Below are positions 17,136-39,181 of a stretch of DNA of 64,000 bases, piece by piece (within the stretch, counting starts at the first letter, position 1; the number at the start of each line of letters is the position of its first letter). Source of the DNA: an uncultured Paracoccaceae bacterium (lineage in GTDB: Bacteria; Pseudomonadota; Alphaproteobacteria; Rhodobacterales; Rhodobacteraceae); assembly GCA_947495795.1 (NCBI GenBank), contig CANMAI010000008.1, positions 62,001 to 126,000 of the forward strand. The letters run 5' to 3'. Below the pieces are notes generated by a model. That model searched no databases and had not been told where the DNA came from. It saw nothing but the letters and a program-made list of their open reading frames with translations. A program made the translations under genes and the position numbers.

Positions 17136-17191
17136 CCTCCCAGCCGCGCTTGCCTTTAAGGAAGGAGAGAGCGTCATGATGGGAGAAGCGG

Positions 17192-20474: not shown

Positions 20475-21464
20475 ATGGCCCTTACCGCAGCCTCGCCCGC
20501 GCAGGAGCGCTGGAATCGCTGGATCATGATCGGCCTTGTGGCCATCGTGGTGATCAGCCTCGGGCTTTTGGCCGCTGCAACAGGGTGGGAGGAGACATGG
20601 GCCTCGCTTTCGGCGCTGACGATGGGCCAGGTCCTCTTCCTCCTCTTCCTCTCCACGTGGAACTACGTGATGCGGGGCATCCGCTGGTTTCTCTATCTGA
20701 GGGTGCTTGGTGTGCCGCTCACCTTTATGGCGGGCATGCGCCACTACCTTGCAGGTTTCGCGATGACGGTAACACCCGGGCGGCTGGGAGAACTGGTGCG
20801 GCTCCGCTGGATCCATCAGGAAACCGGTTTTTCCTATGAACGCGCCGCACCGATCATATTGGTGGATCGCGCCGCCGATCTTGCGGCAATCGGCCTTCTG
20901 ATGGCCATGGCCTTTGTGCTTTCGGCAGCAGGCTCAGCATCCGGCCTTCTACCCGTGGCGCTGATCTCTGTTTTCGTTGCAATTCTCTTTACCCGCCAGT
21001 CGCTCGCCCTTGCCGGGATCACACTTCTCTGGCGCATTGTAGGCCGATGGCCCGCGCTGTTCGCACGCCTCCGCCGGGCTGCGCGAACGCTCGGCCCCTT
21101 CTCGCACCCTACGATCATCCTGCCTGCGCTGGTGCTCGGCGGGATCGGCTGGTTTGCCGAAGGGCTTTCCTTTTACTATCTCCTTGTCTGGCTCGGGGCC
21201 GATATCGGCCTCTGGCCCGCCGTCGGCATCTTCCTTCTGGCGATGGTAACGGGCGGCGCCACAGGTGCGCCCGGCGGGCTCGGCGGGGCGGAGGCGGCGA
21301 TGGTCGGCCTTCTCGCACTTCAGGGCGTGCCGCTGGAAGTCGCCATCCCCGCAACAGTGATCATTCGCCTCACCACACTCTGGTTTGCCATTGCAATCGG
21401 AGTTGGTGTATTCCCCATCGCGACGCATTTTGCCAACAAAGGCCAGCAACTCCGTGAAACATGA
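20475..21464 (+). CDS. Flippase-like (UPF0104 / LPG-synthase membrane domain) protein
   Basis: A 329-residue inner-membrane protein with about eight hydrophobic segments. It has the family marks NYVMRGIRWFLYL, the TVTPGRLGELVR loop and GATGAPGGLGGAEAAMVGL. It corresponds to the membrane domain of lysylphosphatidylglycerol synthase without the catalytic C-terminal domain, and such stand-alone proteins are annotated as flippase-like. Its last 11 bases overlap the dprE1-like gene, so the two are coupled. I infer a role in moving the polyprenyl-linked sugar made by the next two enzymes across the membrane. Direct proof is lacking, and a lipid-modifying role is an alternative. Confidence 0.85.
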   Translation: MALTAASPAQERWNRWIMIGLVAIVVISLGLLAAATGWEETWASLSALTMGQVLFLLFLSTWNYVMRGIRWFLYLRVLGVPLTFMAGMRHYLAGFAMTVTPGRLGELVRLRWIHQETGFSYERAAPIILVDRAADLAAIGLLMAMAFVLSAAGSASGLLPVALISVFVAILFTRQSLALAGITLLWRIVGRWPALFARLRRAARTLGPFSHPTIILPALVLGGIGWFAEGLSFYYLLVWLGADIGLWPAVGIFLLAMVTGGATGAPGGLGGAEAAMVGLLALQGVPLEVAIPATVIIRLTTLWFAIAIGVGVFPIATHFANKGQQLRET

Positions 21465-22755
21465 TACCTATTCCGGCTGGGGCCGGGTGCTGAAAGCAAC
21501 GGGCGATATCGCCCGCCCGGAGCGCGCAAGCGCTTCCCTGCCCGCAGCACCGGCCATCGGCAACCTCCGCGCTTACGGCGATGCCGCGCTCAACTCCAAT
21601 GGCCCCGTTGTGAACATGACGCGGATGGACAGGCTTCTGGCCTTCGATCCCGAAACCGGTGTGTTGCAGGCCGAAGCAGGCGTGACAATCGCAGAGCTGA
21701 TGCGGATTTTCGCACCGCGCGGCTGGATGCCAGCAGTAATGCCCGGCACGGCATATGCCACGCTGGGCGGGGCGATTGCCGCGGATGTGCATGGCAAGAA
21801 CCACGAAAGTGCGGGCAGCTTCGGTGGCCATGTCAAGGAAATCTCCCTTCGCGGCGCGGACAGCGAGATCACCACCGTGACACCCGAAATGCCGCTCTTC
21901 GCGGCGACGCTGGGTGGCATGGGGCTAACGGGCCGGATTGAGGCGGCGACGATCCAGCTTTCTCCTTGCCCTGCCACTGTCATGGATGTGCAGGAAACGC
22001 GCGCGCCCAACCTCGCTGCCTTTCTGGCCGCCTTCGACGATATCGCAGAGCCCTATTCCGTGGGTTGGATAGACGCGACAGCTCAGGGGGAGGCGCTTGG
22101 GCGTGGCATTCTGGAGAAGGCCAGCTTTGCTGTGCGCGACTTTGCGTTTGAGCCGAAGGGAAAGCCTGCCAAGGCAATCCCATTCGATGCACCGGGCTTC
22201 GCGCTTTCCGCACCCGTCGTTCGCACATTTAACAGCCTTTACTATCACCGTGTGCCTAAGGCGGGCCGGAAGCGGAATCGCAACCTGCGTCAGTTCTTCT
22301 TCCCGCTGGATCATCTTTCCAACTGGAACAGGCTTTACGGCAAACGCGGCTTTCACCAGTTTCAATGCGTTCTGCCGCACCGTACGGCAGCAATGGTGCT
22401 GGATGCGATGCTGCGCGATATCGCCAAGGCGGGGCTCGCATCACCGCTTGCCGTGCTCAAGCGGCTTGGACCGGGGCGTTCGGGCCTCATGTCTTTCCCG
22501 ATGGAGGGTTATACACTCGCCGTTGATCTGCCCAATCGCGCAGGCGTCGAAGCATTGGTTTCGCGGCTTACCGCACAAACGGTGGAGGCGGAGGGCCGCG
22601 TCTACCTCGCCAAGGATGCCCTGACGGATGCAGAGAGCCTCTCGAACATGTATCCGGAGCTTCCCGCGTTTCGCGAAGCGATCCGCAAGGCGGATCCGGA
22701 GGGTGTGTTCGAGACAGATCTCGCCCGCCGCCTGAACCTGCGGGGAGATGCGTGA
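21454..22755 (+). CDS. dprE1: DprE1-like FAD-dependent decaprenylphosphoryl-ribose 2'-oxidase
   Basis: This 433-residue enzyme aligns along its length with mycobacterial DprE1, which oxidises polyprenylphosphoryl-ribose to the 2'-keto form using FAD. Matching parts are GWGR at the N-terminus, the FAD-binding ADVHGKNHESAGSFGGHV (H113 corresponds to the FAD-contact histidine), ATLGGMGLTG, FFFPLDHLSNWNRLYG, and the catalytic lysine K387 in VYLAKDAL. The cysteine that benzothiazinones attack in M. tuberculosis (C387, in VCVDFP) is alanine here, A356 in YTLAVDLP. I use the GTG at 21454, within the end of the flippase-like gene, because homologues begin near GWGR. DprE2 follows with a one-base overlap. 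Confidence 0.9.
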   Translation: MKHDTYSGWGRVLKATGDIARPERASASLPAAPAIGNLRAYGDAALNSNGPVVNMTRMDRLLAFDPETGVLQAEAGVTIAELMRIFAPRGWMPAVMPGTAYATLGGAIAADVHGKNHESAGSFGGHVKEISLRGADSEITTVTPEMPLFAATLGGMGLTGRIEAATIQLSPCPATVMDVQETRAPNLAAFLAAFDDIAEPYSVGWIDATAQGEALGRGILEKASFAVRDFAFEPKGKPAKAIPFDAPGFALSAPVVRTFNSLYYHRVPKAGRKRNRNLRQFFFPLDHLSNWNRLYGKRGFHQFQCVLPHRTAAMVLDAMLRDIAKAGLASPLAVLKRLGPGRSGLMSFPMEGYTLAVDLPNRAGVEALVSRLTAQTVEAEGRVYLAKDALTDAESLSNMYPELPAFREAIRKADPEGVFETDLARRLNLRGDA

Positions 22756-23492
22756 TGGCTGATCTTTGGCTTATTCTCGGTGCCAGTTCCGCCATGGCCC
22801 GTGCCTTTGCCCGTCTTCAGGCGGAAGCGGGTGCTGCGATCACCCTTGCGGGTCGCGACAGGGATGATCTGGAGCGGAGCGCGGAGGATCTGCGACTGCG
22901 CGGTGCCGCAGATGTGCGCATCGCGCTTGTTGATCTGCGAGACAGCGCGAGTTTCACCCCCCTGCTGGAGCAGGCGGAGATGCATGACGGCATGGTAAAT
23001 GCTGCGATTTTCGCAGGCTCCATGCCGCCGCAGGAAGATGTGCAGGATGATCCGGCACTCTTCGCACCCATGGTCGTGGATAATTTCACCGGCAGCGCAG
23101 AGTTCCTTCTGGCGCTGGCGCCTGAGCAGATCAAGCGGGGCGCTGGCGAAGTGGTGGGTGTAAGTTCTGTGGCCGGGGATCGCGGGCGATTTTCCAACTA
23201 TGCCTACGGTTCGGCCAAGGCAGGCTTTCAGACTTTTCTGTCCGGCCACCGCAACCGCATGGCACGGGACGGTGTGCATGTGATGACGGTCAAGCCTGGT
23301 TTCGTGGATACGGCGATGACATGGGGCCTGCCCGGCCTTTTCCTGATCGCCAGCCCCGCGGATGTGGCGGTCGACATTGCAAAGGGGCTGCGCAAGAAGC
23401 GCAACGTGATCTACACGCCGGCCTTCTGGATACTGATCATGACGATCATCCGCACTGTGCCGGAACGCATCTTCAAGAAGCTCTCGATGTAG
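22755..23492 (+). CDS. dprE2: DprE2-like short-chain reductase
   Basis: A 245-residue short-chain dehydrogenase/reductase with the NAD(P) motif LILGASSAMARAF, the VSSVAGDRGRFSNYAYGSAKAG active-site region containing the S...YxxxK triad, and a hydrophobic C-terminal segment (FWILIMTIIRTV) ending in basic residues, typical of membrane-associated DprE2. It would reduce the keto intermediate made by DprE1 to polyprenylphosphoryl-D-arabinose. Start and upstream stop overlap as TGATG. The strict gene order dprE1-dprE2 supports the assignment over a generic SDR. Confidence 0.9.
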   Translation: MADLWLILGASSAMARAFARLQAEAGAAITLAGRDRDDLERSAEDLRLRGAADVRIALVDLRDSASFTPLLEQAEMHDGMVNAAIFAGSMPPQEDVQDDPALFAPMVVDNFTGSAEFLLALAPEQIKRGAGEVVGVSSVAGDRGRFSNYAYGSAKAGFQTFLSGHRNRMARDGVHVMTVKPGFVDTAMTWGLPGLFLIASPADVAVDIAKGLRKKRNVIYTPAFWILIMTIIRTVPERIFKKLSM

Positions 23493-23782: not shown

Positions 23783-24259
23783 TCAGGCTGCACGTGCATC
23801 CTTTTCCAGAGACATCAGAAACTCCAGGTGGCCCGGGCAGAAATCCGCATAGAGTTTGTAGAGCCAATGATCCTTCGCAAGGCCGTGAACGGACCAGAAG
23901 CGGTAATCCTCTGTAAGCTCCTCACCCACCTCGATATCTCTCAGCGCAGTGCAATTGTCTTCCTCCAGCGCTGTCCACTCCGTAATACCGATATTGGCGT
24001 TCGGGGCAGCGGCGTGGTTCACAAACTCCTGCCCGTCGCGGTACCACACAAATTTCTGGGTGGGATGATGGAGAAATCCGCCGTGCAGCGCATAGTGCAG
24101 GTCTTCCCGGCTCAAAGCCGCAAGATCCGCCAGATCGCAGACATGCATGCTGTCGTCAAAGGCCCAGACCTTGGTTCCCTTTGCAATCGGCTGTCTCGCA
24201 AATACTCCGGTTCCGTGGAGGGTGCTCTTCTTGAACACCACATCAACATTCCATCCCAT
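23783..24259 (-). CDS. SET-domain protein (putative protein-lysine methyltransferase)
   Basis: The 158-residue protein is nearly all SET domain. It has the HGTGVFARQPIAKGTKVW entry strand, the cofactor-binding FVNHAAAPNANI segment (N81-H82 ... P86-N87) and the ALRDIEVGEELTEDYRFW end with catalytic Y119. No pre-SET or post-SET cysteine clusters are present. SET enzymes use S-adenosylmethionine to methylate lysines and are much less common in bacteria than in eukaryotes. The substrate is unknown; ribosomal proteins or other basic proteins are possible. The stretch DLADLAALSREDLHYALHGG is a linker insertion. Confidence 0.88.
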   Translation of the reverse strand: MGWNVDVVFKKSTLHGTGVFARQPIAKGTKVWAFDDSMHVCDLADLAALSREDLHYALHGGFLHHPTQKFVWYRDGQEFVNHAAAPNANIGITEWTALEEDNCTALRDIEVGEELTEDYRFWSVHGLAKDHWLYKLYADFCPGHLEFLMSLEKDARAA

Positions 24260-24369: not shown

Positions 24370-24444
24370 TTGCAGTCTGGATGTTTTCGGACTGGTAAGG
24401 GTTTTCGCGCAAGAGAGGGCTGTGTAGTCGAAGGAACGCGTGTT

Positions 24445-26640
24445 ATGAGCCGGACAAATCTATCCCGCAGTATCTCTGCGCTGATGATCTCAACCATCAT
24501 ACTGTTTCTCGTCACCATCGGCGGCACAACGTATTGGTTGTCTGCCCAGCTGGATAAGCGGGCGAATGAGGATTCGGTCAGAATGATCGCGGCAGCGATT
24601 GAAGCGCTCGAAGGCCAGCTCAACGTCACGGCGCTAGATTACAGCAAATGGGATACTGCCTTCGCTGCGATGATAGAGCAGGATCCGGAGGTTATTCACG
24701 AAACCTATGCCAGCGGGGCGACGGATGGCACCGTAATGCAGCTTCTGGCCCTCACAGACGGGCCTTTTGACGGCGTACAGTCCTGGGAGGCGGATGGATC
24801 TTACGACCCTGTGCCAGATCTTGTACCGGAAGAAGTTATAGATGCGATGCGCCGTCAGGTTTCGGAAAAGGAAATCGGAGACTATGAGACACGCAATTTT
24901 TCGGCCTTCGCAAACGGCAACCTCCATATCTTCTCCGGCACATGGATCGAGCCGGAGGATGCCACCCTACACCCCGACCTGAAAAAGGAAGAACTGACAC
25001 TCGCAATCCTCGGCTACAGACTGGATGCGGATGAATTGGCAAAAATGGGCGCCAATTTTCTGATAGAGGGCCTGACCATTACAGGGGAACCTGATGCGGG
25101 CAAGCCGTTCGTGGCGCTCACCGGACCGGATGGTGCGCCTTCCGCCTATCTGGCCTGGCCCGTGCAGCGGCCGGGGACGGCCCTCGTCAAAAAACTGCTG
25201 ATCCCGCTTTCCTTTGTGGCCGCGTTCTTCACCGCAGCCGCCCTTGCCACAACGCTGATTGCCCGAAAGAGCGCAGCGGAGTTGATCCGCCAGGAAGCAC
25301 GGGCATCACTGGCGGCACGCACTGATCACCTTACCAAACTGCCCAATCGTTTTGCGTTGGGAGCCACGTTTGAGGCACTTGCGGAAAAGGGTATGCAGGA
25401 GCTTTCTGTACTCTTTCTCGATGTGAACGGATTCAAGACCGTAAATGATACCACCGGCCATGATGGAGGAGACTATCTTGTCTCTCAATTGGCTGATCGT
25501 CTGCGCTCGGCCTTGGGTGCAGGAGATATGCTTGCACGCGTCGGCGGAGACGAGTTTCTGGTTCTGACCCCCGGAGAGGGTGCAGCAGAGAGAACGCAGC
25601 AGCTTGGCCACCAGATCGAGCAAAGCCTGCGTATGCCTTTCCTCGTGAAAGGGCGCAGGTTTCATATCGGTGTCTCAATGGGGTATGCGCACAGAGACCG
25701 CGACGATATCAAACCTGCGGAATTGGTTCGGCAGGCGGATTTGGCAATGTATCATGCCAAAAAGCGCGGCACTTCGGAGCTCATTGAATACGATAGCCGG
25801 ATTGAGACCGATGCTGATGAGCGCAAACAAATCGAGGAGGCTCTGCGCGCCGCGATTTCCGAGCCGGATGAGTTTACGATCAACTACCAGCCAATCCACG
25901 ATGCCATTCTGGGTGAGATCGTAAAATTCGAGGCACTTGCGAGGTGGACCTCCGGGATCATCGGCCCGATCCGGCCCGATCTCTTTATCTCCGTTGCGGA
26001 AGAAACCGGCCTGATTGTGGAAGTAGGTGAAATTCTTTTTAAGAAAATCTGTACCGATCTGCAAAACCATCCGGATCTTCGGGTGAGCATAAATATTTCA
26101 CCTGCGCAGTTGGAAAATGCCAATTTCACCAAAAACATTATCGGCACGTTGAAAGAGGCAAACGTCAGCGCAAGCAGGATCGAGATCGAGTTGACGGAGA
26201 GTATTGTCGTCGAAAGCCCGGAACTGGCTGCCTTCAAGCTCGACATGCTTAAAGAGGCGGGTTTCTCAACGTCGCTCGATGATTTCGGGACGGGATATTC
26301 CTCCATCGAGTATCTAAGGCGCTTGCCGTTTGACACATTGAAGATCGATAAATCCTTCATCGACAAATTTCCGGGCTGCAAGCAGGATCACAGCCTCGTT
26401 CAGGCAATTGTGATTCTCGGGCACGCCCTCAATCAGAAGATTGTCTGCGAGGGTGTGGAAACGGAAGAGCAGATGCGCGCGCTTCAATCTCTGGGCTGCG
26501 ATCAGCTGCAGGGCTACTATTTCTCCAAGCCAATGCCGATCGGCGATTTACCAGACTATGTGGCTCAGTCGCACTTCCAAAAATTCGCCGATGAAGCAAC
26601 GATCTCCAACCTGAGCGCCATGCCGCGAGGGAGCGCCTAA
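24445..26640 (+). CDS. Membrane GGDEF-EAL protein with CHASE4-like sensor
   Basis: A 731-residue c-di-GMP enzyme. TM1 (residues 11-33) and TM2 (about 251-273) bracket a periplasmic domain with ALDYSKWDTAF, as in CHASE4 sensors. The GGDEF domain has an intact GGDEF (367-371) but GAGD where the RxxD inhibitory I-site would be, so product inhibition is probably absent. The EAL domain keeps E496-A-L, DDFGTGYSS and the late CEGVET motif, so it should hydrolyse c-di-GMP. Both activities are possible, and the balance may depend on the periplasmic signal. The start is the ATG at 24445, with GAAGGAACG upstream. It may tune pilus or surface behaviour, but the link to the nearby Tad genes is inference. 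Confidence 0.95.
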   Translation: MSRTNLSRSISALMISTIILFLVTIGGTTYWLSAQLDKRANEDSVRMIAAAIEALEGQLNVTALDYSKWDTAFAAMIEQDPEVIHETYASGATDGTVMQLLALTDGPFDGVQSWEADGSYDPVPDLVPEEVIDAMRRQVSEKEIGDYETRNFSAFANGNLHIFSGTWIEPEDATLHPDLKKEELTLAILGYRLDADELAKMGANFLIEGLTITGEPDAGKPFVALTGPDGAPSAYLAWPVQRPGTALVKKLLIPLSFVAAFFTAAALATTLIARKSAAELIRQEARASLAARTDHLTKLPNRFALGATFEALAEKGMQELSVLFLDVNGFKTVNDTTGHDGGDYLVSQLADRLRSALGAGDMLARVGGDEFLVLTPGEGAAERTQQLGHQIEQSLRMPFLVKGRRFHIGVSMGYAHRDRDDIKPAELVRQADLAMYHAKKRGTSELIEYDSRIETDADERKQIEEALRAAISEPDEFTINYQPIHDAILGEIVKFEALARWTSGIIGPIRPDLFISVAEETGLIVEVGEILFKKICTDLQNHPDLRVSINISPAQLENANFTKNIIGTLKEANVSASRIEIELTESIVVESPELAAFKLDMLKEAGFSTSLDDFGTGYSSIEYLRRLPFDTLKIDKSFIDKFPGCKQDHSLVQAIVILGHALNQKIVCEGVETEEQMRALQSLGCDQLQGYYFSKPMPIGDLPDYVAQSHFQKFADEATISNLSAMPRGSA

Positions 26641-27296: not shown

Positions 27297-28739
27297 TCAA
27301 CCTATGGCCGGAGTTCCGACGGTCGCGACGACCAAGAGCACCAGAGCGCTCGCGATCAGGCTCAGGCCCCAGGGATCGCGGAGCGCAAAGACAATCGGAT
27401 CATAGGCCTGCCTGCCCTTCCACCCCGTCCAGATCATCCGCGCCTGCCACGCCATCAGCGGCACAACCACTAGCCAGAGCCAGACACGCGAATTGTAGAG
27501 CAGCTCTGCCGTCTCGGAAAACGTGTAACCCACGAAGACACCACCCGCGCCAAGAGATGAGACAATACCGATGTTGAGCAAATCGTCGCGGTTGAGACGC
27601 GTATAGGCCCGCCCCGGCAAAGGCCCGTCTGTTGTTGCCTTGGCCAGTTCCGTCAGCCGCTTTACGCAGGCGAGGGTGAGAAAAATGGGGAAGACAAAGC
27701 CAATAATCCAGCCCGAAGTCTCCACTTGCGCTGCAACAGCCCCTGCGACAACGCGCAAAGTATAGAGCGCACCGAGCGTTGCCACATCAGCCCAGCGCAC
27801 ACGTTTGATCCGCAGGGAGTAGGCAAGCGTCGTGACGATATAGACAAGTATCACGACCAGCATCGACCAGCTCAGCACTGCCGCGAGCAACAGAGCAAAG
27901 GTGCCAAGGGCAAGGCTGAGCGCCATGCCGATCTTGATGGGTGCGCGCCCCGCAGCGAAAGCACGGTTCTTCTTTGTCTCATGCACGCGGTCCGCACTCA
28001 GATCCGTCAGATCATTTACGATGTAAATCGCCGAAGCCGCTGCAGAAAAGGATATGACGCCGATTATCACATTCAGAATGGAAAGCGGTTCGAAATTATG
28101 CGCCGCCAGCAACGGCAGGAACAAAAGGATATTCTTCACCCACTGATGCGGGCGGATCCCTTTCAGAAGATCCTTCCAAGCCCAGCTCTCGCCTATTTCC
28201 TCACTGTCCAGCCCCGCGGCTGCAATCTTCGCGCGAATGCCCCTCCGAGGCCGGGCGACATAGGCCTTGCGAGCCACCTTCCAGATCGCAACATCCTTGC
28301 CCGTATCGCCAACGTAATCGAACCCGGCCTCGCCGAACTCGGCAACCAGCCTATCTGCCTTCGCCTGCCCGGTGAGATTGGTGGTGCCTTCCGTGCCAAT
28401 CACGAGATCAAAAAGATCTTCGTCGGAAGCCGAAACGATATCATCCAGCAGTTTTTGCGGAGACGCGCTGGCCAGCACGACCGGACGCCCCTCTGCCTTG
28501 GCCGAAAGGCAGAGCGCCTTCACGTCGGCGTCTACCGGCAGAACGGAAAGATCCACAAGGCCCTGTGCCGCAAGCGCCTCTTTCAGGGCCGTGCGCTTCC
28601 AGATATTGCGCAGCACCAGCCGCACGGTACCCACAGGATCCGCCCCCATACCGTGCCAGAAGCCTTCGTAAAGCATATCCGTGCGCAGATATGTGTCGTC
28701 CAGATCCACAACCAGTGGCACAGGCGCGGCACTGCTCAT
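27297..28739 (-). CDS. HAD phosphatase - UbiA prenyltransferase fusion (phosphoribosyl-polyprenol synthase type)
   Basis: The 480-residue protein joins two domains. Residues 1-190 are a HAD phosphatase: D12-L-D14-D-T motif I, S91 region in VLASASPQK and GDTGKD (144-149) as the metal-binding end motif. Residues 191-480 are a UbiA-type membrane enzyme with the two aspartate motifs NDLTDLSAD (242-250) and YSLRIKRVRWAD (307-318). The UbiA part most resembles Rv3806c, which moves 5-phosphoribose from PRPP to polyprenyl phosphate. The HAD part would then remove the 5-phosphate. With DprE1 and DprE2 at 21.5-23.5 kb this completes a polyprenylphosphoryl-D-arabinose route. It follows a lytic transglycosylase gene after six bases. 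Confidence 0.88.
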   Translation of the reverse strand: MSSAAPVPLVVDLDDTYLRTDMLYEGFWHGMGADPVGTVRLVLRNIWKRTALKEALAAQGLVDLSVLPVDADVKALCLSAKAEGRPVVLASASPQKLLDDIVSASDEDLFDLVIGTEGTTNLTGQAKADRLVAEFGEAGFDYVGDTGKDVAIWKVARKAYVARPRRGIRAKIAAAGLDSEEIGESWAWKDLLKGIRPHQWVKNILLFLPLLAAHNFEPLSILNVIIGVISFSAAASAIYIVNDLTDLSADRVHETKKNRAFAAGRAPIKIGMALSLALGTFALLLAAVLSWSMLVVILVYIVTTLAYSLRIKRVRWADVATLGALYTLRVVAGAVAAQVETSGWIIGFVFPIFLTLACVKRLTELAKATTDGPLPGRAYTRLNRDDLLNIGIVSSLGAGGVFVGYTFSETAELLYNSRVWLWLVVVPLMAWQARMIWTGWKGRQAYDPIVFALRDPWGLSLIASALVLLVVATVGTPAIG

Positions 28740-28745
28740 GATACG

Positions 28746-29597
28746 TTACTCCGAGGCAACCCGGAGCGTTGCGAAAAGGCATCCATCGGTGGCCCGCTCC
28801 GGCGGGCGCAGGCAGGTTTGCCGTGCACTGGCCCAGGCAGCCACCACTTTGGGGACATACCCCCGCGTTTCCTTGAACTCCGGAACACCCTCATACCGAT
28901 CCACCGCTCCCTCACCCGCGTTATAAGCGGCGAGCGCAAGCAGTGCATCCCCTTTGAAACGATTGAGAAGAAAAGAAAGATATTTTACGCCCCCACCGAT
29001 ATTCTCTGCCGGATCGTTGAGCTTCTTCACGCCAAAGCGCTCCGCTGTTGCCGGCATGAGCTGCATCAACCCCCGCGCGCCCGCGCTGCTTTTCGCAGCA
29101 GCCTTGCCCGCGCTTTCGGTTGCAATCACCGCCACCACCAAAGCAGGAGAAATCTCTGTGCCTAAAGTCGCCTTCAAAATCTCAGCCCCATAACTGGAGA
29201 CAATCTGCTGTATCACCGCATCGCTGGGAGTGATTTTTGCTACTTCATCGGGATTTTTCTCCAGCACACGCATGGCCTTGGCCAGTTTGCCATATCCGGC
29301 ATCCGCAACGCGCGGCGACATGGCCCCCCAGAACCACCGATCAGACGTGGCGACATCGACAGGCGCCTTGGGCGCTTCCTTGCGCTCGCGCAATTCCGGT
29401 AGCTCGATCACATGATCGAGCGCACGGGTGGTAACTGCCGGTGGCGGAACATGAATGGTGATGAGTTTCTTTGCCCCCGATACCGGCGGCTTTACGCGCT
29501 TGAAGGTAAAAGACGACGTCCCGCCTTCATCAGCCACTGCTCCACCAGCCCCAAGCGCTGCCACAAGCAACGCGGCCCAAAGTTTTGAATACTGCAT
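28746..29597 (-). CDS. Exported SLT-type lytic transglycosylase
   Basis: A 283-residue secreted enzyme that cleaves peptidoglycan between MurNAc and GlcNAc. The signal peptide (MQYSKLWAALLVAALGAGGA) has no lipobox cysteine. Catalytic E161 is in VIATESAG, followed by GARGLMQLMPATAERFGV and the ALAAYNAGEGAVDRY motif. A basic linker occupies residues 30-85. I start at the ATG at 29597 because it gives a clean signal peptide; a longer frame starts at 29618. It lies directly upstream of the HAD-UbiA gene and divergent from the Flp pilin, so it may open the wall for pilus assembly; that role is inferred from position. Confidence 0.9.
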   Translation of the reverse strand: MQYSKLWAALLVAALGAGGAVADEGGTSSFTFKRVKPPVSGAKKLITIHVPPPAVTTRALDHVIELPELRERKEAPKAPVDVATSDRWFWGAMSPRVADAGYGKLAKAMRVLEKNPDEVAKITPSDAVIQQIVSSYGAEILKATLGTEISPALVVAVIATESAGKAAAKSSAGARGLMQLMPATAERFGVKKLNDPAENIGGGVKYLSFLLNRFKGDALLALAAYNAGEGAVDRYEGVPEFKETRGYVPKVVAAWASARQTCLRPPERATDGCLFATLRVASE

Positions 29598-29971
29598 CTG
29601 CCTCGCTCGATCATACACTCTCTGGTGTCGTTGAATTTGATTCTAAAGCAACGGCAGAATCGCGCAAGACAGGGCTAATTTTAACGATTCCAATGGGATA
29701 TCGAGCAACACTTGGCAGGCAACGACAACAATTTTGCGCTGCAGCAAGGTTTTTGAAGCCGAAAAACATAATAAAATCAGAATGTTGAATGGGGTGAGCG
29801 GAATTCCACCTATTGGTCACAATCCCCGCCCAATTCCTGCCCGATTTGCAGGTTGTTATGGCTTTGGTCGCTAGAGTAACTCTGTGACTGGTTTGGGAAG
29901 CATTGGTGGTGTTCCACCCAAATCCGTCGAAACGTGACAAACTTTAATTTTTTCCTTGGAGGGAAATCAAA
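29598..29971. other. Intergenic region between divergent transglycosylase and Flp pilin genes
   Basis: A 374-base AT-rich spacer carrying the promoters for both directions. No full CtrA-type box is found here, although TTTTAACGATTCC is a half-match. Open frames in it are short and unconvincing. The final 20 bases contain TTGGAGGG, the strong ribosome binding site of the pilin. Confidence 0.6.
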
Positions 29972-30157
29972 ATGAAAATGCTGAAACTCAAGAACATCTT
30001 CACAAAAGAAGAAGACGGCGCCGTGACTGTAGACTGGGTTGTACTGACAGCTGCCATCGTTGGCGTATCCGTTCTCCTCATGCTCTTCGTTCGCGCTGGT
30101 GTTAACAACGCCGCTTCCGCGATCCTGGAAGAGCTGACATCTGCGATCAACGGCTGA
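29972..30157 (+). CDS. flp: Flp/Fap-type pilin subunit
   Basis: The 61-residue prepilin has a basic leader (MKMLKLKNIFTKEEDG), cut after the glycine by the prepilin peptidase, then a hydrophobic helix (AVTVDWVVLTAAIVGVSVLL) and a short C-terminal part with serines and a threonine (SAILEELTSAING). In place of the classical Flp E+5/Y+6 it has D-W, as in many Rhodobacterales pilins. This is the only pilin gene seen. A strong ribosome binding site (GGAGGG) and a terminator right after the gene fit an abundant, separately transcribed message. The C-terminal Ser/Thr residues are the candidate sites if the pilin is glycosylated. Confidence 0.92.
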   Translation: MKMLKLKNIFTKEEDGAVTVDWVVLTAAIVGVSVLLMLFVRAGVNNAASAILEELTSAING

Positions 30158-30220
30158 TCCAGCCTGATCCGTCTGCCGATTACGGGTTGAATGCAACCTC
30201 TTGGCAGACAAGTGTTTTGG

Positions 30221-30252
30221 ACGGCCCCGTGACGGGGCCGTTCGCTTTTTTG
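30221..30252 (+). terminator. Rho-independent terminator after flp
   Basis: ACGGCCCC pairs with GGGGCCGT around GTGAC, followed by TCGCTTTTTT. It ends the pilin transcript and would limit readthrough into cpaB, setting pilin levels above those of the assembly proteins. Confidence 0.9.
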
Positions 30253-30517
30253 GTGTATGGGTGCGCTTGAGCTCAGACCCCAGGCCGGAAAGCACAGGGC
30301 TTGGTCGGGCAAGATTCAACGCGCAAGGATATCGCTGGAAACAGAAGAGCAGGTCTATCGGGAATGTTTTCCGTTTTGTAAGACTTCCTTTATATACCAG
30401 ACCAGCAGGAAAATTTTGCCCGGGCAGATTGATGATGCCCTCGGCCTGAACTAAAGTGTTGTCGATGTGGCTTCCGGAAAGCCGCGCCAGACGCCATACC
30501 AGAGGGGTAGACCTTTA

Positions 30518-31357
30518 ATGCGCATCATCTTCGCACTCGTTTTCTTGGTGGGTATCGGGATTGCCGGCTTTGCCGCCTTTCTCGCGATGGATCAGTTCAA
30601 AGTTCTCCAGGCTCAGAACAGCGCCCTGAAAATTCGGGCTGCCAAGGTTGTGGATGTAACCCCCGTAATTCTCGCCAAGGCACCCCTTCGCTACGGGCAA
30701 GAGCTGCGCCGTGAGCACGCCTATGAGGTGAGCTTCCCAGCCGATGCCGTCCCCAAGAACGCCTTCACCTCAATGGAAGAGCTCTTTGGCCCCGAGAAGG
30801 ATACGCCTTCCCGCGCTATCCTGCGGCGGATCGAACCCGGTGAAATTATCAGCGCAACAAAGGTAACACGGTTTGGCCAGCCAGCCGGAGTGGGCTCCAT
30901 GCTCAACAAGGGAATGCGGGCCTTTACCATTCGGGTCGATGTTCTCACCGGCGTGTCCGGCTTTCTCCAGCCCGGAGACAAGGTAGACGTGTTCTGGTCC
31001 AGTACACAGAACGGAAGAACGGTTACAAAACAGTTGCTGGAAGGTGTGGATATCATCGCAATCGACCAGAATGCGGATGAGGATACGAACCGCCCTGTTA
31101 TTGCGCGCACCGTGACCGTGGAGGTAACACCACTGATCGTCGCCACGCTTGCACAGGCTCAGTCTCAGGGTCGCCTCTCCCTCGCACTTCGGGGAACAGA
31201 GGACACCACAATCATGGGCGCAGTTCTGGAAGTCACACAGGAAGACCTGCTTGGCATTGAAGAGGCCCCGGAGGAAGTGGAAGCCAAGGTTTGCACTCAG
31301 TCGATCATGCGTGCCGGTCAGCGGACCACGATCACCGTACCCTGCCCCGACGAATAG
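30518..31357 (+). CDS. cpaB: Flp pilus assembly protein CpaB (RcpC)
   Basis: A 279-residue protein of the CpaB family with an N-terminal membrane segment (RIIFALVFLVGIGIAGFAAF), a SAF-like domain (APLRYGQELRREH ... PGEIISATKV) and the central GVSGFLQPGDKVDVFW motif. It is thought to steady the secretin channel in the periplasm. I start at the ATG at 30518, preceded by AGAGGGG; a longer frame from 30467 lacks a good site. It has its own promoter region after the flp terminator and leads into cpaC. Confidence 0.92.
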   Translation: MRIIFALVFLVGIGIAGFAAFLAMDQFKVLQAQNSALKIRAAKVVDVTPVILAKAPLRYGQELRREHAYEVSFPADAVPKNAFTSMEELFGPEKDTPSRAILRRIEPGEIISATKVTRFGQPAGVGSMLNKGMRAFTIRVDVLTGVSGFLQPGDKVDVFWSSTQNGRTVTKQLLEGVDIIAIDQNADEDTNRPVIARTVTVEVTPLIVATLAQAQSQGRLSLALRGTEDTTIMGAVLEVTQEDLLGIEEAPEEVEAKVCTQSIMRAGQRTTITVPCPDE

Positions 31358-31536
31358 GGGCAGGAGCACCTGAATTTTCAGGCAAATTCACGCAGGTGTG
31401 ACTTATCCACATCAATTCTCGCCCATAACATACTGATTATTGTGTTTTTTTAGATTTCCTCGCATCCTCTCTCTTGCATTGGGCGCGCCATGTACGCGTC
31501 CGAGCATATCATTGTGGTTTTGAGAGGCAGGAAATC

Positions 31537-32931
31537 ATGACTTGGACTCGTTTGATCAAAGCAGGCCTGATCGGCTGTGTTTTGTCAGCGCCTTTGGTAA
31601 CGCAGGCAAATGCGCAAAGTGTGCTGAAAGTTCTTCGGGGGGCAACCTCCAACAATATCTCCGTAGCGGTGAACAGGGCCGTGGTGATGGAAGCAGATCG
31701 CCCCTTCGGCGAGCTTTCCGTGGCCAACCCCAGCATCGCGGATATCGCCACGCTGGGTGAGCGCACGATCTATGTGCTCGGCAAGGCACCGGGGCGTACC
31801 ACACTCACCATTCTCGGTGAAGATGGCAGCCTGGTAACCAACGTGGATGTTCGGGTCAGCCCCGATCTTGCAGAGTTCAAAGAGCGTCTGCGCGATATCC
31901 TCCCTTCCGAACAGATCGAGGTTCGCACCGCAAATGACGGTATCGTCCTTTCCGGTCGCATCTCGGGCGCACGCAAGCTATCGCGCGCAATCGAACTGGC
32001 AGAGCGTTATGCGCCAGGCCGGGTCACCAATCTTATGGTTGTCGGTGGTACACAGCAGGTCATGCTGAAGGTTCGCTTCGCCGAGATGGAGCGGTCCGTT
32101 GCCAAGAGTTTCTCGAGCCAGTTGGGCTTGAACTATAACGGCGGAAGCGGCGATTTGGTCGGAGCTGGTGGTCAGGGAGGAGTGCTCGACAATCTTGGGC
32201 TCAATACCCCCGGAGAAGTCGGCGACCTGACCTTTAGCGATACACCAATCGGCATAGCCGGACTGGCATTGGATCTCGGCGACATCGCAATTGGATCCGT
32301 GCTTGAGGCGCTTGAAACAAAGGGTGTTGTTCGGACGCTGGCAGAACCAAACCTCGTAGCGATCTCTGGTGAGGAAGCATCCTTCCTGGCCGGTGGCGAG
32401 ATTGGTATTCCGATCCGCACAGACGACACAACGACCGTTCAGTTCCGGGAGTTTGGTGTACGCCTCAACTTCCAGCCCTTCGTGATCGATGATGATCTGG
32501 TCAAGCTGATCCTGGAGACGGAAGTGTCCTCGATTGACGTTTCCGACATCACTACAGGGGTTACCCTGGATGTCCGCCGGGCTTCGACCAGCGTAGAAAT
32601 GCGTGACGGACAGAGCTTTGCAATTGCCGGGCTGCTGCGTGATGACTTCAACGATAGCGTTGGGCAGGTTCCCTGGTTGGGTGATATTCCCATCCTCGGC
32701 GCGCTTTTCAGGTCCACAAGTTATCAGCGTGAGCAGAGCGAATTGGTGATCATCGTGACACCTCACCTCGTGACGCCCACGGATGGCTCGACCCTGGCTT
32801 TGCCAACGGATCGCATGCGCATCCCGAGTGAACTGGAACTTTTCGCAAACGGCCAGACGGTTGGAACTCAAGCCGTGCAGGATATCGCACAGCAGGATTT
32901 CCAGGGCTCCTACGGCTACGTGATGGAGTGA
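31537..32931 (+). CDS. cpaC: Type II/IV secretin CpaC (RcpA)
   Basis: The 464-residue outer-membrane secretin of the Flp pilus. It has a signal peptide ending ...TQANAQ, an N-terminal pilus-type domain (ATSNNISVAVNRAVVMEADR), a BON-like region (LPSEQIEVRTANDGIVLSG) and the secretin core with VRTLAEPNLVAISGEEASFL and the VPWLGDIPILGALFRS signature. A glycine-rich stretch (GGSGDLVGAGGQGG) lies before the core. The ATG at 31537 follows GAGAGGCAGGA. The OmpA-like lipoprotein gene begins five bases after its stop. Confidence 0.95.
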   Translation: MTWTRLIKAGLIGCVLSAPLVTQANAQSVLKVLRGATSNNISVAVNRAVVMEADRPFGELSVANPSIADIATLGERTIYVLGKAPGRTTLTILGEDGSLVTNVDVRVSPDLAEFKERLRDILPSEQIEVRTANDGIVLSGRISGARKLSRAIELAERYAPGRVTNLMVVGGTQQVMLKVRFAEMERSVAKSFSSQLGLNYNGGSGDLVGAGGQGGVLDNLGLNTPGEVGDLTFSDTPIGIAGLALDLGDIAIGSVLEALETKGVVRTLAEPNLVAISGEEASFLAGGEIGIPIRTDDTTTVQFREFGVRLNFQPFVIDDDLVKLILETEVSSIDVSDITTGVTLDVRRASTSVEMRDGQSFAIAGLLRDDFNDSVGQVPWLGDIPILGALFRSTSYQREQSELVIIVTPHLVTPTDGSTLALPTDRMRIPSELELFANGQTVGTQAVQDIAQQDFQGSYGYVME

Positions 32932-32936
32932 GACTG

Positions 32937-33551
32937 ATGAAAAGCATTCTTCTCAAAACGTCCCCCCTGCTGCTCGCGATTGCAGTATCAGGGTGCGACA
33001 CCACCGCCTTGCTCAACACAGCGGGTGAAACGGATGCGGCGTCCAAAGCTTTCGGCAGCGCCTCAGCTAACAACGTGGTGGCACAGTCGGCTTACCTGAA
33101 GGGGGGTATCCTCGCGGATCTTTCCAACAGTTTCCGCGCCGCCACACCGGATATGATCAACTTTGCCTTCAACAGCACGGTTCTGGATACTGAGGCTCGT
33201 GCCATCCTTGATCGTCAGGCAGCATGGATCAGCGCCAACCCGGCCATCCGGTTCCGCGTGTATGGACACACCGACAAGGTGGGATCCAACAGCTACAACC
33301 AGCGCCTCGGCCTTCGCCGCGCGCAGGCTGCAGTTAACTACATGGTTGCCCGCGGTGTACCACGCGCCAAGCTGGAAGCCGTATCCTCTTTCGGGGAAAC
33401 GCGGCCTCTGGTGGATACACAAAACCGTGAGCGTCTGAACCGGCGCACAGTGACGGAAGTTGTTGGATTTGCGCGAGGTTTCGTCGGCGACGATCTCGAC
33501 GGAAAATACGCCAACGGCTTCTACCTTGGATACGTCTCAGGCGGTCTGTAA
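32937..33551 (+). CDS. OmpA-like lipoprotein of the Flp pilus locus
   Basis: A 204-residue outer-membrane lipoprotein. The lipobox AVSGC follows a hydrophobic signal, and a C-terminal OmpA/Pal domain contains the peptidoglycan-binding segments NFAFNSTVLDTEARAIL and YGHTDKVGSNSYNQRLGLRRA. Placed right behind the secretin, it probably anchors the channel to the cell wall, the job done by pilotin or TadG-like parts elsewhere. I use the ATG at 32937 (GGAGTGAG upstream); the GTG nine bases earlier is less likely. A terminator follows, closing the first assembly transcript. Confidence 0.9.
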   Translation: MKSILLKTSPLLLAIAVSGCDTTALLNTAGETDAASKAFGSASANNVVAQSAYLKGGILADLSNSFRAATPDMINFAFNSTVLDTEARAILDRQAAWISANPAIRFRVYGHTDKVGSNSYNQRLGLRRAQAAVNYMVARGVPRAKLEAVSSFGETRPLVDTQNRERLNRRTVTEVVGFARGFVGDDLDGKYANGFYLGYVSGGL

Positions 33552-33580
33552 GCACAAAAAGAATCAAAGCCACTTACCTT

Positions 33581-33608
33581 ACCGCCGGGTTTCCCCCGGC
33601 GGTTTTTT
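33581..33608 (+). terminator. Rho-independent terminator after the OmpA-like gene
   Basis: ACCGCCGGG and CCCGGCGGT form a strong stem with loop TTTCC, followed by TTTTT. It separates the cpaB-cpaC-ompA unit from the cpaE unit. Confidence 0.92.
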
Positions 33609-33655
33609 CGTTTATGGTCAGGGCGACACTCATCGAAAGATGGTGATTGAAGCAT

Positions 33656-33670
33656 TTAACTCGCCCTTAA
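33656..33670. promoter_or_regulatory. CtrA-type box upstream of cpaE
   Basis: TTAA-CTCGCCC-TTAA followed by C matches the CtrA consensus exactly. It lies 220 bases before cpaE, just after the preceding terminator, where the promoter of the cpaE-cpaF-tadBC unit must be. The 282-base gap from 33609 to 33890 holds no gene. Confidence 0.6.
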
Positions 33671-33890
33671 CGATATTAGTTGATGCAAGCTTTCAACGCT
33701 TGTCTCACTTTCGACACTTTTTTTGCGCAAAACTCATTTGTTTTACACGACTTGTGAAACCGATTAAGTGTATGCTTCGGGTTTGGTATGGTTGCCATGC
33801 AGAGTACGCGCAAAGCCGGAACCGAGATGAGCATGCAATGCACGCACCAGACCCGGCGGGCGAGGGAGTGTAAGAAATGAGGCACGAACG

Positions 33891-35117
33891 ATGGGATTAT
33901 TGAAGGCAAAACCTGAAGAGGTTGAGGTATTCGCAATCGCGCGGAACCACGCCGACTTCCCTGATATGACGATCGGCCTGAACACGGTGATCGCCGGGCG
34001 CTGGGCTCCGCTGGAGCTTGATAATGGCGAGGCCACGATCAAGGCGGGTGTCGGGCCGGATCTGGAGATCGCGATTGTTGCAGTCTCATCGGATGATGAG
34101 AGCAATCTCACGCCGGTCACCAAAGTTATCCAGACCGCGCGCGATCACGGCCTGAAAGTGCTGCTGATCGCAAAGGATCTTTCACCGGCTGGTTTGCATC
34201 AGCTTCTCCGCGTCGGTGCTGATGATTTTGCGCCCTACCCTCTTCCGGAAGGCGCGCTGAGCGATGCGATCACGCGGCTGCGCAGTTCCTTCGAACAAAA
34301 GCCGACAGAGGCGAAAAGCAACGGCCAACGCAACCGACGCGGCATTATCATGCCTGTTTACGGTGTTGCAGGCGGTGTGGGCGCGACGACATTCGCTGTA
34401 AATATCGCGTGGGAGCTTTCGCTTCTCAGCAAGAAAACAGATAAGCGCGTTTGCCTTCTGGATTTCAATTTCCAGTTCGGCTCCGTATCCACTTTTCTTG
34501 ATTTGCCGCGTCGCGAGGCAATCTACGAGCTGATCTCGGATCCCGACGCAATTGATCACGATTCGCTAAGTCAGGCGCTGACCTCCTACAAAACGCGCCT
34601 CGCCGTTCTCACGGCTCCGATGGACGCTTTGCCACTTGATATTATAGCGCCTGAAGATATCTCCAAACTGCTCGAAATCGCCCAGGCATCCTATGATTTC
34701 GTTGTGGTGGATATGCCTCAGGCACTCGTTCACTGGTCCGATAATGTGCTTCGCATGGCCGAAACCTACTTCGCCGTGATGGAAATCGATATGCGATCGG
34801 CGCAAAACTGCCTACGCTTCCTGCGTGCCTTGAAGGCCGAAGATCTGCCCTACGAGAAGGTGCAGTTTGCCCTGAACAGATCCCCCGGTTTCACTGATAT
34901 TAACGGAAAAGCGCGCGCAAAACGTCTGGCAGAAAGCCTTGGTGTCGAGATCAATATCATGCTGCCCGATGGTGGTAAATCCGTGCTCGCGGCAGGCGAT
35001 GAAGGCACGCCTCTTGCGGAAAGCGCCCCAAAAAATGCACTTCGTAAAGAGTTCAAGAGCATAGCTCAGTCCATCTTCGATGCCGTGGTGGCCGATAAAG
35101 CCGCCGTCGTTCAATAA
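33891..35117 (+). CDS. cpaE: Pilus localisation ATPase-like protein CpaE (TadZ)
   Basis: A 408-residue MinD/ParA-related protein. The N-terminal 130 residues resemble a receiver fold without the phosphoacceptor. The ATPase part has a variant Walker A GVAGGVGATT (residues 158-167) in which the usual lysines are missing, as is common for TadZ, then VCLLDFNFQFGSVSTFLDL and VVVDMPQ (Walker B). It marks the pole where the pilus machine assembles. It is the first gene of the second assembly operon, behind a CtrA-type box. Confidence 0.93.
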   Translation: MGLLKAKPEEVEVFAIARNHADFPDMTIGLNTVIAGRWAPLELDNGEATIKAGVGPDLEIAIVAVSSDDESNLTPVTKVIQTARDHGLKVLLIAKDLSPAGLHQLLRVGADDFAPYPLPEGALSDAITRLRSSFEQKPTEAKSNGQRNRRGIIMPVYGVAGGVGATTFAVNIAWELSLLSKKTDKRVCLLDFNFQFGSVSTFLDLPRREAIYELISDPDAIDHDSLSQALTSYKTRLAVLTAPMDALPLDIIAPEDISKLLEIAQASYDFVVVDMPQALVHWSDNVLRMAETYFAVMEIDMRSAQNCLRFLRALKAEDLPYEKVQFALNRSPGFTDINGKARAKRLAESLGVEINIMLPDGGKSVLAAGDEGTPLAESAPKNALRKEFKSIAQSIFDAVVADKAAVVQ

Positions 35118-35134
35118 AGCCGAGGAACTTACGC

Positions 35135-36562
35135 ATGTTTCGTCGCTATCAACGTAATCAGGAAGCCCCCACTCCTCCCAAGATTGAGGCGGCGCCCGAA
35201 GAAATTGCATTCAAGCAGCGTCAGCGCCAGGAGCGCGACAAGAAGAAGATGTCGCAATCCGAGATTGCGGATGTCCAACGCGAATCCAAACGTCAGGACA
35301 AGCTCCTTGATGTGCGGATGGAACTGCACAAGCGTCTCCTCGAAACACTGAACCTTGCGGTGCTCGACAAAGCGACCGAGCAGGAACTGCGTCAGGAAAT
35401 CACGATTATCACGCGGGAAGGCCTGCGCGATGCGGGCGTTGTGTTGAACGGCTCCGAACTGGAGCAGATCAACCAGGATCTCTTTGATGAGGTCACAGGC
35501 CTTGGCCCGCTGGAAATTCTGCTGAAAGATCCGTCGGTTAACGATATTTTGGTCAACGGTCCATTGCAGGTTTTCGTGGAGCGTAACGGTAAGCTGGAGC
35601 TCACGAGTGTGCGCTTCAAGGATGATCGCCACCTCCTTCGGATCATCGATAAAATCGTCTCCGCTGTCGGTCGTCGTGTGGATGAGAGCCATCCGTATGT
35701 GGATGCGCGGCTTGCCGATGGTTCCCGTTTCAACGCGATGGTTCCCCCGTGTGCGGTGGATGGCGCGCTCGTTTCAATTCGTAAGTTTTCCAAGGAAAAG
35801 CTCAGTATCGATGAGTTGGTGGAATTCGGCGCTTTCACGGAAGAGATGGCAGCCTACCTTCAGGCCGCCGTGGCGACCCGGCTCAATATCGTCGTCTCCG
35901 GCGGTACGGGTTCCGGCAAAACCACAACGCTCAATGCGCTTTCCAGCTTTATCGACGATTCAGAGCGGATCGTGACGATCGAGGATACAGCCGAACTTCA
36001 GCTTCAGCAGATCCATGTGGGCCGGATGGAAAGCCGCCCGCCAAACGTGGAAGGCAAGGGTGAGGTTTCGCAGCGCATCCTCCTCAAGAACGCTCTGCGT
36101 ATGCGGCCAGACAGAATTATCGTGGGGGAGACGCGTGGCGAGGAAGTGATCGATATGCTTCAGGCCATGAACACGGGCCACGATGGCTCCATGACGACGA
36201 TCCACGCCAACTCCGCACGAGATGCCGTAAGCCGCCTTGAGAACATGGTTGCAATGGCCGGGATCGAGATGCCGCTCAAGGCTGTGCGTCAGCAAATCGC
36301 CTCGGCTGTAAACCTCATGGTGCAGGTCAGTCGTCTGCAGGATGGCTCACGTCGTATGGTTTCCATCACGGAGATCACTGGCATGGAAGGCGAGATCATT
36401 TCCATGCAGGAAGTGTTCAAGTTCAAGCGTGAACGGATCGGCGAGGGTGGCAAGATCCACGGCCGCTTCGTCGCTACCGGCCTTCGCTCGCACTATGCGG
36501 AACGCTATCGCCAGTGGGGCTACGATCTGCCCGCTTCCATTTATGTGGAACAAGCCGGCTGA
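35135..36562 (+). CDS. cpaF: Secretion ATPase CpaF (TadA)
   Basis: This 475-residue hexameric ATPase powers Flp pilus assembly and perhaps retraction. A charged N-terminal region (residues 20-60) is followed by the conserved N-domain and the motor, with Walker [10 protein letters not shown] (256-264), an aspartate box (IEDTAELQL), Walker [12 protein letters not shown] and the [12 protein letters not shown] histidine box. All are intact. It starts 17 bases after cpaE with GAGGAACTTACGC upstream. Confidence 0.96.
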
Positions 36563-36607
36563 TGCAGGTTTCTCCACTTAAAATCGACATCCGGGAGGCC
36601 GTTCACA

Positions 36608-37570: not shown

Positions 37571-37593
37571 GAGAGAGCTCGGAGAAACAACAC

Positions 37594-39133: not shown

Positions 39134-39181
39134 AAAAATAAGTCCGAGCAGAACGATATAAAAAGACAGAGGTACAGGCAT

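Follow-up and report, generated by a model that had tools for sequence, protein, structure and literature searches.

A HAD-UbiA fusion gene of Rhodobacteraceae belongs to a gene module that brackets the Tad locus and may serve arabinosylation of the pilus

The HAD-UbiA fusion gene at 27297 to 28739 of the window (the whole stretch of 64,000 nucleotides from an uncultured Paracoccaceae bacterium analysed here) turned out to be one piece of a larger feature, overlooked in the sequence-only reading of this DNA, namely a gene module bracketing a Tad locus. What is new is this setting in Rhodobacteraceae, since this type of fusion had already been shown in 2024. We propose, with a probability of roughly 0.6, that the module makes polyprenyl-phosphate-arabinofuranose and that a GT-C enzyme decorates the Tad pilus with it, the donor being suggested by homology and the acceptor by linkage. 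The fused protein would make polyprenyl-phosphate-ribofuranose, its UbiA part adding phosphoribose and its HAD part removing the 5-phosphate, and the DprE1-like and DprE2-like enzymes would convert ribose to arabinofuranose. A flippase, perhaps the LPG_synthase_TM protein, might carry the lipid across the membrane, and the GT-C enzyme would attach the sugar to the Tad pilus; linkage suggests as its most likely target the Flp-like pilins, whose genes lie between the module halves. The layout is flippase candidate, DprE1-like, DprE2-like and HAD-UbiA genes on one side, the pilin and tad genes in the middle, and the GT-C-fold gene on the other side:

20475 to 21464, plus strand: membrane protein of the LPG_synthase_TM family, candidate lipid-sugar flippase (family matches, synteny)
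21385 to 22755, plus strand: DprE1-like oxidase, bounds of the ORF (NF053785, PDB sequence matches)
22752 to 23492, plus strand: DprE2-like SDR reductase (PRK07102, NF053786)
27297 to 28739, minus strand: HAD-UbiA fusion (480 aa), a predicted polyprenyl-phosphate 5-phosphoribosyltransferase that carries its own 5-phosphatase
28182 to 28739, minus strand: HAD (SerB-like) domain of the fusion, about residues 1-186, boundary approximate (D12, D14, S91, K127, D145, D149)
27300 to 28181, minus strand: UbiA-fold transferase domain of the fusion, about residues 187-480 (N242, D243, D246, D250, R361, E364)
28746 to 29618, minus strand: lytic transglycosylase (SLT), directly upstream of the fusion
29972 to 30157, plus strand: Flp-like pilin, 61 aa (EEDGAVTVDWVVLTAAIVG), proposed acceptor (relatives; Pfam Flp1_like E=0.06, below cut-off)
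30467 to 40048, plus strand: Tad genes, with CpaB at 30467, CpaC at 31474, OmpA-like at 32928, CpaE at 33891, CpaF at 35135, TadB at 36608, TadC at 37594, and TPR (TadD-like) at 38525 and 39182
40636 to 42258, minus strand: GT-C-fold membrane protein, 540 aa (ORF to 42273), predicted from its fold as a lipid-sugar-dependent arabinofuranosyltransferase

Among the Tad proteins, the Pfam scan covered CpaB (RcpC), the OmpA-like protein, CpaE (AAA) and both TPR proteins; the names CpaC, CpaF, TadB and TadC are presumed from recall and synteny. The lytic transglycosylase we consider a companion of the Tad locus and not a part of the module, because it was found in all 25 covered Tad loci without GT-C. 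The true start of the DprE1-like gene is probably a GTG near 21454. In addition, a Hint_2-domain protein lies just 5' of the flippase gene (19036-20025), a small SET-domain protein of 158 aa at 23783-24259, and a GGDEF-EAL protein with a weak CHASE4 match, which might connect the pilus with c-di-GMP, between the module halves (24370-26640). Right behind the pilin gene there is a terminator-like hairpin of 12 pairs followed by a T run (30218-30244).

The fusion gene starts with ATG, has GGAG 9 nt 5' of it, and is separated by 6 bases from the lytic transglycosylase gene. Its product matches NCBIfam NF006088 (PRK08238, 'UbiA family prenyltransferase') over residues 3-474 with 467.3 bits, above the cut-off of 351, and Pfam UbiA covers residues 211-359; because of these two matches the ORF is, judging by sequence, a real gene and not a chance one, and an overlapping plus-strand ORF of 479 aa (27726-29165) was taken as antisense noise. 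For the HAD part no Pfam family was found at E<=0.001. The structure model of the full chain, built from 25 aligned proteins, reached a mean pLDDT of 92.5 and a pTM of 0.88, with a HAD domain at the N-terminus, for which Foldseek returned SerB-like and other HAD proteins, and a UbiA fold at the C-terminus; model and alignment place catalytic residues in both parts. The claim of the sequence-only reading that a HAD phosphatase and a UbiA domain are joined in one chain, for which it had suggested this very prediction as a check, was thus borne out, and the motifs that it quoted are in place: DLD at residues 12-14 (within D12-L-D14-D-T16), GDTGKD at 144-149 and NDLTDLSAD at 242-250, along with YSLRIKR at 307-313. 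Residues N242, D243, D246, D250, R361 and E364 are invariant in the 25 aligned proteins, the window's own included. Homology to tested proteins makes the predicted role of the fused enzyme highly probable, and channelling between the putative HAD and UbiA activities is possible.

We asked to which branch of the superfamily the UbiA part belongs. Its best PDB sequence match is 8j8j, the DPPR synthase of M. tuberculosis (E 3.3e-24, residues 191-470), which is also the top Foldseek result for the fusion model (E 1.5e-11, TM 0.88 by target length), followed by other UbiA enzymes, and the N-D..D...D active site of 8j8j is retained. The DPPR synthase/PRK12324 equivalog models gave 135.6, 114 and 104.8 bits, all under their cut-offs of 207, 474 and 234; the UbiA part is, by these scores, a relative of DPPR synthase and not a member of its equivalog families. 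Results of a 48-row tree placed it with DPPR synthases and their relatives (Rhodococcus, M. tuberculosis, Marivivens, Lactococcus), across a branch supported at 100/99 from the heme o synthase, 4-hydroxybenzoate octaprenyltransferase and chlorophyll synthase of the source genome and their relatives. The order within the DPPR/HAD-UbiA side is unsure, as the program flagged long branches and the HAD-UbiA rows form one group in 42% of bootstrap trees. NCBIfam named the other UbiA proteins of the source genome heme o synthase and chlorophyll synthase above the cut-offs, with a 4-hydroxybenzoate fragment just under. Family models, the 8j8j match, fold and tree all agree with the phosphoribosyltransferase type assigned beforehand, and the phylogeny that had been called for showed no grouping with haem or quinone enzymes. 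An identity as a haem, quinone or chlorophyll prenyltransferase, which has nothing in its favour beyond the common UbiA superfamily, is ruled out by the 100/99 split, with 8j8j as the best solved structure pointing the same way, and we regard it as extremely improbable.

The fusion itself is not new, as the NCBI model PRK08238 exists and ORF15 of Citrobacter youngae O1 has been characterised biochemically. As the accessible portion of that work reports (PMC11127046, PNAS 2024), ORF15 is a demonstrated enzyme with HAD followed by a UbiA-type domain in one chain, ORF15 membranes convert PRPP to farnesyl-phosphate-ribose (an ion near m/z 435), and once the HAD nucleophile is mutated (D18A) the product keeps its 5-phosphate (m/z 513), apart from a little that is dephosphorylated. 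The earlier view of the HAD domain as the likely 5-phosphatase fits the D18A result, while its standing as a first identification is lost, since ORF15 came earlier; likewise, synthesis of an arabinose donor agrees with the DPPR-type UbiA part and the DprE1-like and DprE2-like genes at the locus, the novelty of the fusion being the part that fell. One could also take the HAD part for a regulatory or vestigial domain and not the 5-phosphatase of the pathway. In 3 of the 25 aligned proteins the HAD part is truncated and its catalytic residues are gone while the UbiA part is intact, as seen in the alignment:

L144, 5778-7016: fusion gene with degenerate HAD part
L150, 5847-7070: fusion gene with degenerate HAD part
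L151, 5815-7062: fusion gene with degenerate HAD part

These three count against a strict need of the fused HAD; a second HAD-UbiA is present in the L144 genome and none in the genomes of L150 and L151. Moreover, 7 of the 25 proteins carry N at the position of the first aspartate of motif IV. Against a vestigial domain stand the conservation of D12 in 23, of D14 in 22, of K127 (or R) in 22 and of the last motif-IV aspartate in 22 of the 25, the 5-phosphorylated product of the ORF15 nucleophile mutant (PMC11127046), and Lactococcus, where a separate HAD-IB gene follows the transferase gene; a HAD part without the phosphatase role thus seems quite improbable. Elsewhere the phosphatase partner varies: a PAP2 gene adjoins the transferase gene in Rhodococcus and Marivivens, and in Azospirillum a fused HAD is followed by GtrA, FAD oxidoreductase and SDR genes.

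As for the steps that would follow, the DprE1-like oxidase scored 380.3 bits with NF053785, below the cut-off of 500, and DprE1 accounts for the best 9 of its 12 PDB matches (E 2e-76 to 1e-70), followed by a match at 1e-5. The DprE2-like protein scored 261.8 bits with PRK07102 (cut-off 267) and 157.3 bits with NF053786 DprE2 (cut-off 250). Such scores under the curated cut-offs count against an arabinose pathway. In DprE1 a cysteine is the residue attacked by benzothiazinone drugs, and our alignment has an alanine at its position in the window's protein. The LPG_synthase_TM protein might be the flippase, a guess from its family and synteny.

The GT-C-fold protein has no Pfam family and no PDB sequence match. 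Its model (pLDDT 89.5) was closest in structure comparison to ArnT, with a Z of 12.9, just short of the value of about 13 under which the tool advises caution with helical models, then to Pmt4 (11.9) and the AftA arabinosyltransferase (11.8), and Foldseek gave ArnT at E 1.9e-4 and AftA at 2.3e-3 with a TM of only about 0.4. By title, rows 1-41 of the structure comparison are GT-C enzymes or complexes holding one, two GPI transamidase rows being counted on what we take to be the fold of a subunit. The modelled structure is consistent with assigning a GT-C fold to this protein. D32 is the same in all 30 aligned proteins; judging by the helix list of the model, it is the acidic residue of the first periplasmic loop, following membrane helix 1. 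A relative in G058 (hhalign probability 99.3, 222 columns) follows HAD-UbiA, DprE1 and DprE2 genes away from tad. Of 289 genomes sampled from the class, with just four of the window's family among them, the source genome alone gave a high GT-C score; two further matches were weak and partial, and no Tad-type GT-C outside the family was found in that sample.

We then looked at the layout in 20 stretches from 19 genomes, which were chosen by matches and show layout, not frequency. The order UbiA, transglycosylase, tad genes, GT-C and AAA gene holds in 15 of the 19 genomes, and flippase, DprE1 and DprE2 genes are also in the stretch in 13 of those 15; G106 and G146 have DprE1 on another contig. 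Among the other four, G074 carries HAD-UbiA with DprE1/E2 and no tad genes in the stretch, G082 has HAD and UbiA split, also with no tad genes in the stretch, G052 has no UbiA in the stretch, and most of the locus is missing in G055. The G055 locus (L056, 11773-18752) resembles a deletion scar: genes for the flippase, DprE1 and a shortened DprE2 stand next to a single TPR gene and the GT-C and AAA genes, the stretch lacks UbiA, the transglycosylase and the rest of the tad genes, and HAD-UbiA was not found in the genome.

A scan for the CpaC family returned at least 80 Tad loci, most of them labelled Rhodobacteraceae or genera of it; 48 of the 80 were fully covered, and the 32 too short on one side were excluded from the two-by-two counts and the tree. 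GT-C and UbiA occurred together in 19 of the 48, GT-C only in 4, UbiA only in 1 and neither in 24; for GT-C and DprE1 the counts were 18, 5, 0 and 25, and the Fisher values for both comparisons ignore kinship. The module is nearly all-or-none in these loci. Named marine relatives in which the locus is complete include Oceanibium sediminis (L075), Neptunicoccus sediminis (L082) and Nereida sp. (L123). Where a GT-C locus had no DprE1 in the stretch (five cases: L088, L091, L097, L100, L121), the gene was found elsewhere in the genome, which brings DprE1 to 23 of 23 GT-C-positive genomes (18 times at the locus and 5 times outside it). HAD-UbiA or its UbiA part is present in 21 of the 23, L100 and L096 having HAD-UbiA elsewhere in the genome and not at the GT-C locus. 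The one UbiA locus without GT-C (L154) has both GT-C (672 bits) and DprE1 elsewhere, so that DprE1 was found elsewhere in all six genomes tested whose Tad locus has UbiA or GT-C and no DprE1 in the stretch. Of the 24 loci with neither gene, 9 were searched genome-wide, and in all nine GT-C and a DprE1-like gene were absent and no HAD-UbiA exceeded 20 bits (one match at 19 bits).

A tree of five Tad proteins with 49 rows, the window included, requires 5 changes of the GT-C label, all of them enforced by branches with good support. At four of them (L112, L137, L143 and a clade of 21 rows) GT-C, UbiA and DprE1 are jointly absent and the tad genes are kept, and the fifth involves L154. This joint change of genes on both sides of retained tad genes points to a joint function. 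Genome counts agree: in the order sample of 149 genomes, a DprE1-like gene accompanies GT-C in 30 of 30 genomes and the UbiA protein does so in 28 of 30, one of the 30 (G058) being a weak match away from tad, and among the 55 genomes that carry a DprE1-like gene 53 also have a UbiA protein. These counts score G035, G082 and G126 (UbiA part alone or split gene) as UbiA-positive, and the samples overlap, G052 and L094 being one species record; G064/L082 and G126/L151 also look like identical records.

Some loci depart from the pattern. L094 (Kangsaoukella) and L103 (Silicimonas) keep the DprE1/E2-like, flippase and GT-C genes, and in both HAD-UbiA was not found in a genome-wide search, nor was a UbiA seen by eye in the ORFs upstream of and around the flippase gene; L110, for which we have the locus only, shows the same pattern. 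The genome-wide search for UbiA returned three proteins in L094, two in L103 and two in G055, and NCBIfam named them heme o synthase, 4-hydroxybenzoate octaprenyltransferase (one match over the cut-off, two just under) and, in L094, chlorophyll synthase. A replacement UbiA phosphoribosyltransferase in L094 and L103 was rejected, as all UbiA proteins found there are assigned to other types and no spare one is left; decay or a different replacement phosphoribosyltransferase are the candidate readings. We also compared the Ser/Thr fraction of the pilin tail, which averaged 0.28 in 68 pilins of GT-C-positive loci and 0.22 in 55 of negative ones, kinship being uncorrected; as proof of the acceptor this was set aside, the difference being weak.

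In the order sample, all from the window's family, PRK08238 matched above cut-off in 59 of 149 genomes, and in a phylum sample it did so in 43 of 349, 4 of the 43 with the UbiA part alone. Plasmid records gave 98 matches below 60% identity, and among the 25 listed those with annotation are mostly called 'UbiA family prenyltransferase'. At L069 (G133, 16571-17421) the UbiA part lies in two overlapping pieces in different frames, a possible frameshift. Nine UbiA-positive genomes of the order sample (G039, G046, G056, G082, G101, G111, G127, G128, G148) have HAD-UbiA, fused or split, and lack a DprE1-like gene; their sugar may be ribose or a different pentose.

The final sugar of the module itself could likewise be ribofuranose or another pentofuranose, with the oxidoreductase pair idle or otherwise engaged. 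The sub-threshold DprE1-like and DprE2-like scores would be expected then, and versions of the system for Ribf and Xylf have been described (PMC11127046). Nevertheless we consider this unlikely, given the DprE1 matches that lead the oxidase's PDB results by such a distance, the DprE1-like gene in every GT-C genome of the order sample, and its recovery elsewhere in all six genomes that lack it at the UbiA or GT-C locus. A more serious competitor, still improbable in our judgement, keeps the donor pathway and has the GT-C enzyme decorate a surface polysaccharide (LPS or exopolysaccharide), the Tad locus being a shared genomic address only. The C. youngae system indeed modifies an O-polysaccharide (PMC11127046), and other HAD-UbiA genes adjoin glycosyltransferase or GtrA/DprE1/DprE2 genes with no tad in the fetched stretch. 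Yet a mere address sits poorly with GT-C loci that carry UbiA in 19 of 23 cases and DprE1 in 18 of 23 across the tad genes, and with G014 and G100, which keep GT-C at the tad end and have HAD-UbiA and DprE1 on another contig. For arabinosylation of the Tad pilus, linkage together with two precedents, the pilin of P. paraeruginosa and Flp1 of Aggregatibacter, suggests the pilus as the acceptor.

Should the pili indeed be the acceptor, single gene deletions would allow a direct test of how these bacteria adhere and how sensitive they are to phages. The module is a concrete, testable gene set for glycosylation of the Tad pilus, it ties the pili of a large bacterial family to an arabinose pathway of mycobacterial type, and its candidate transferase is a GT-C-fold protein for which Pfam has no family. 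We give even odds to the broader proposal that a dedicated module, inherited as a set, lets many Rhodobacteraceae cover their Tad (Flp) pili with arabinofuranose; such a coat may shield the pili from pilus-binding phages. No title or abstract opening joining Tad/Flp pili with an arabinose pathway was found in a search that left subscription papers mostly outside, and the accessible part of a Rhodobacterales Tad paper (PMC8383342) holds no mention of glycosylation, UbiA, arabinose, prenyl or DprE.

The module can be compared with several known systems. Arabinosylation genes are known as noeCHOP for the Nod factors of Azorhizobium. The NF006088/PRK08238 model matches the fusion at full length above its cut-off, and its name goes no further than UbiA. 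The M. tuberculosis DPPR synthase Rv3806c (8j8j) has fold and active-site residues in common with the window's UbiA part; it is without a HAD domain, its phosphatase being a separate protein unrelated to HAD, according to the accessible text of PMC11127046. ORF15 of C. youngae O1 shares the HAD and UbiA-type order as well as the N-D..D...D and R..E spacing, its N247, D248, D251, D255, R366 and E369 being spaced as N242, D243, D246, D250, R361 and E364 of the window. The partners differ: ORF15 works with the MATE flippase ORF14, the GT136 enzyme ORF12 acting on O-polysaccharide and the ORF13 epimerase for Xylf (PMC11127046, available portion), and the window has DprE1/DprE2-like, LPG_synthase_TM and GT-C genes bracketing a Tad locus, a comparison made by architecture and residue spacing. 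Of the three-component pentofuranose addition system, the donor synthase, DprE1/E2-like and GT-C proteins are present, the flippase being a guess from family and synteny.

On the pilus side, P. paraeruginosa (PSPA7_6245-6251, TfpW) likewise has a pathway for a D-arabinofuranose donor and a transferase that modifies a type IV pilin, and arabinosylation of this pilin gives resistance to pilus-specific phages; its pilin is of type IVa, and the donor genes lie in the genomic island RGP80, away from the pilin cassette (PMC12369383, accessible part). TfpW and the window's GT-C protein were set side by side from descriptions of function. RcpC has been implicated in Flp glycosylation in the part available of PMC12307814. 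Finally, Flp1 of Aggregatibacter is a Tad pilin reported to be glycosylated, as the window's pilins may be, and the accessible text of that report names no arabinose pathway (PMC6182317), which is what the module bracketing the Tad locus of Rhodobacteraceae would bring in.
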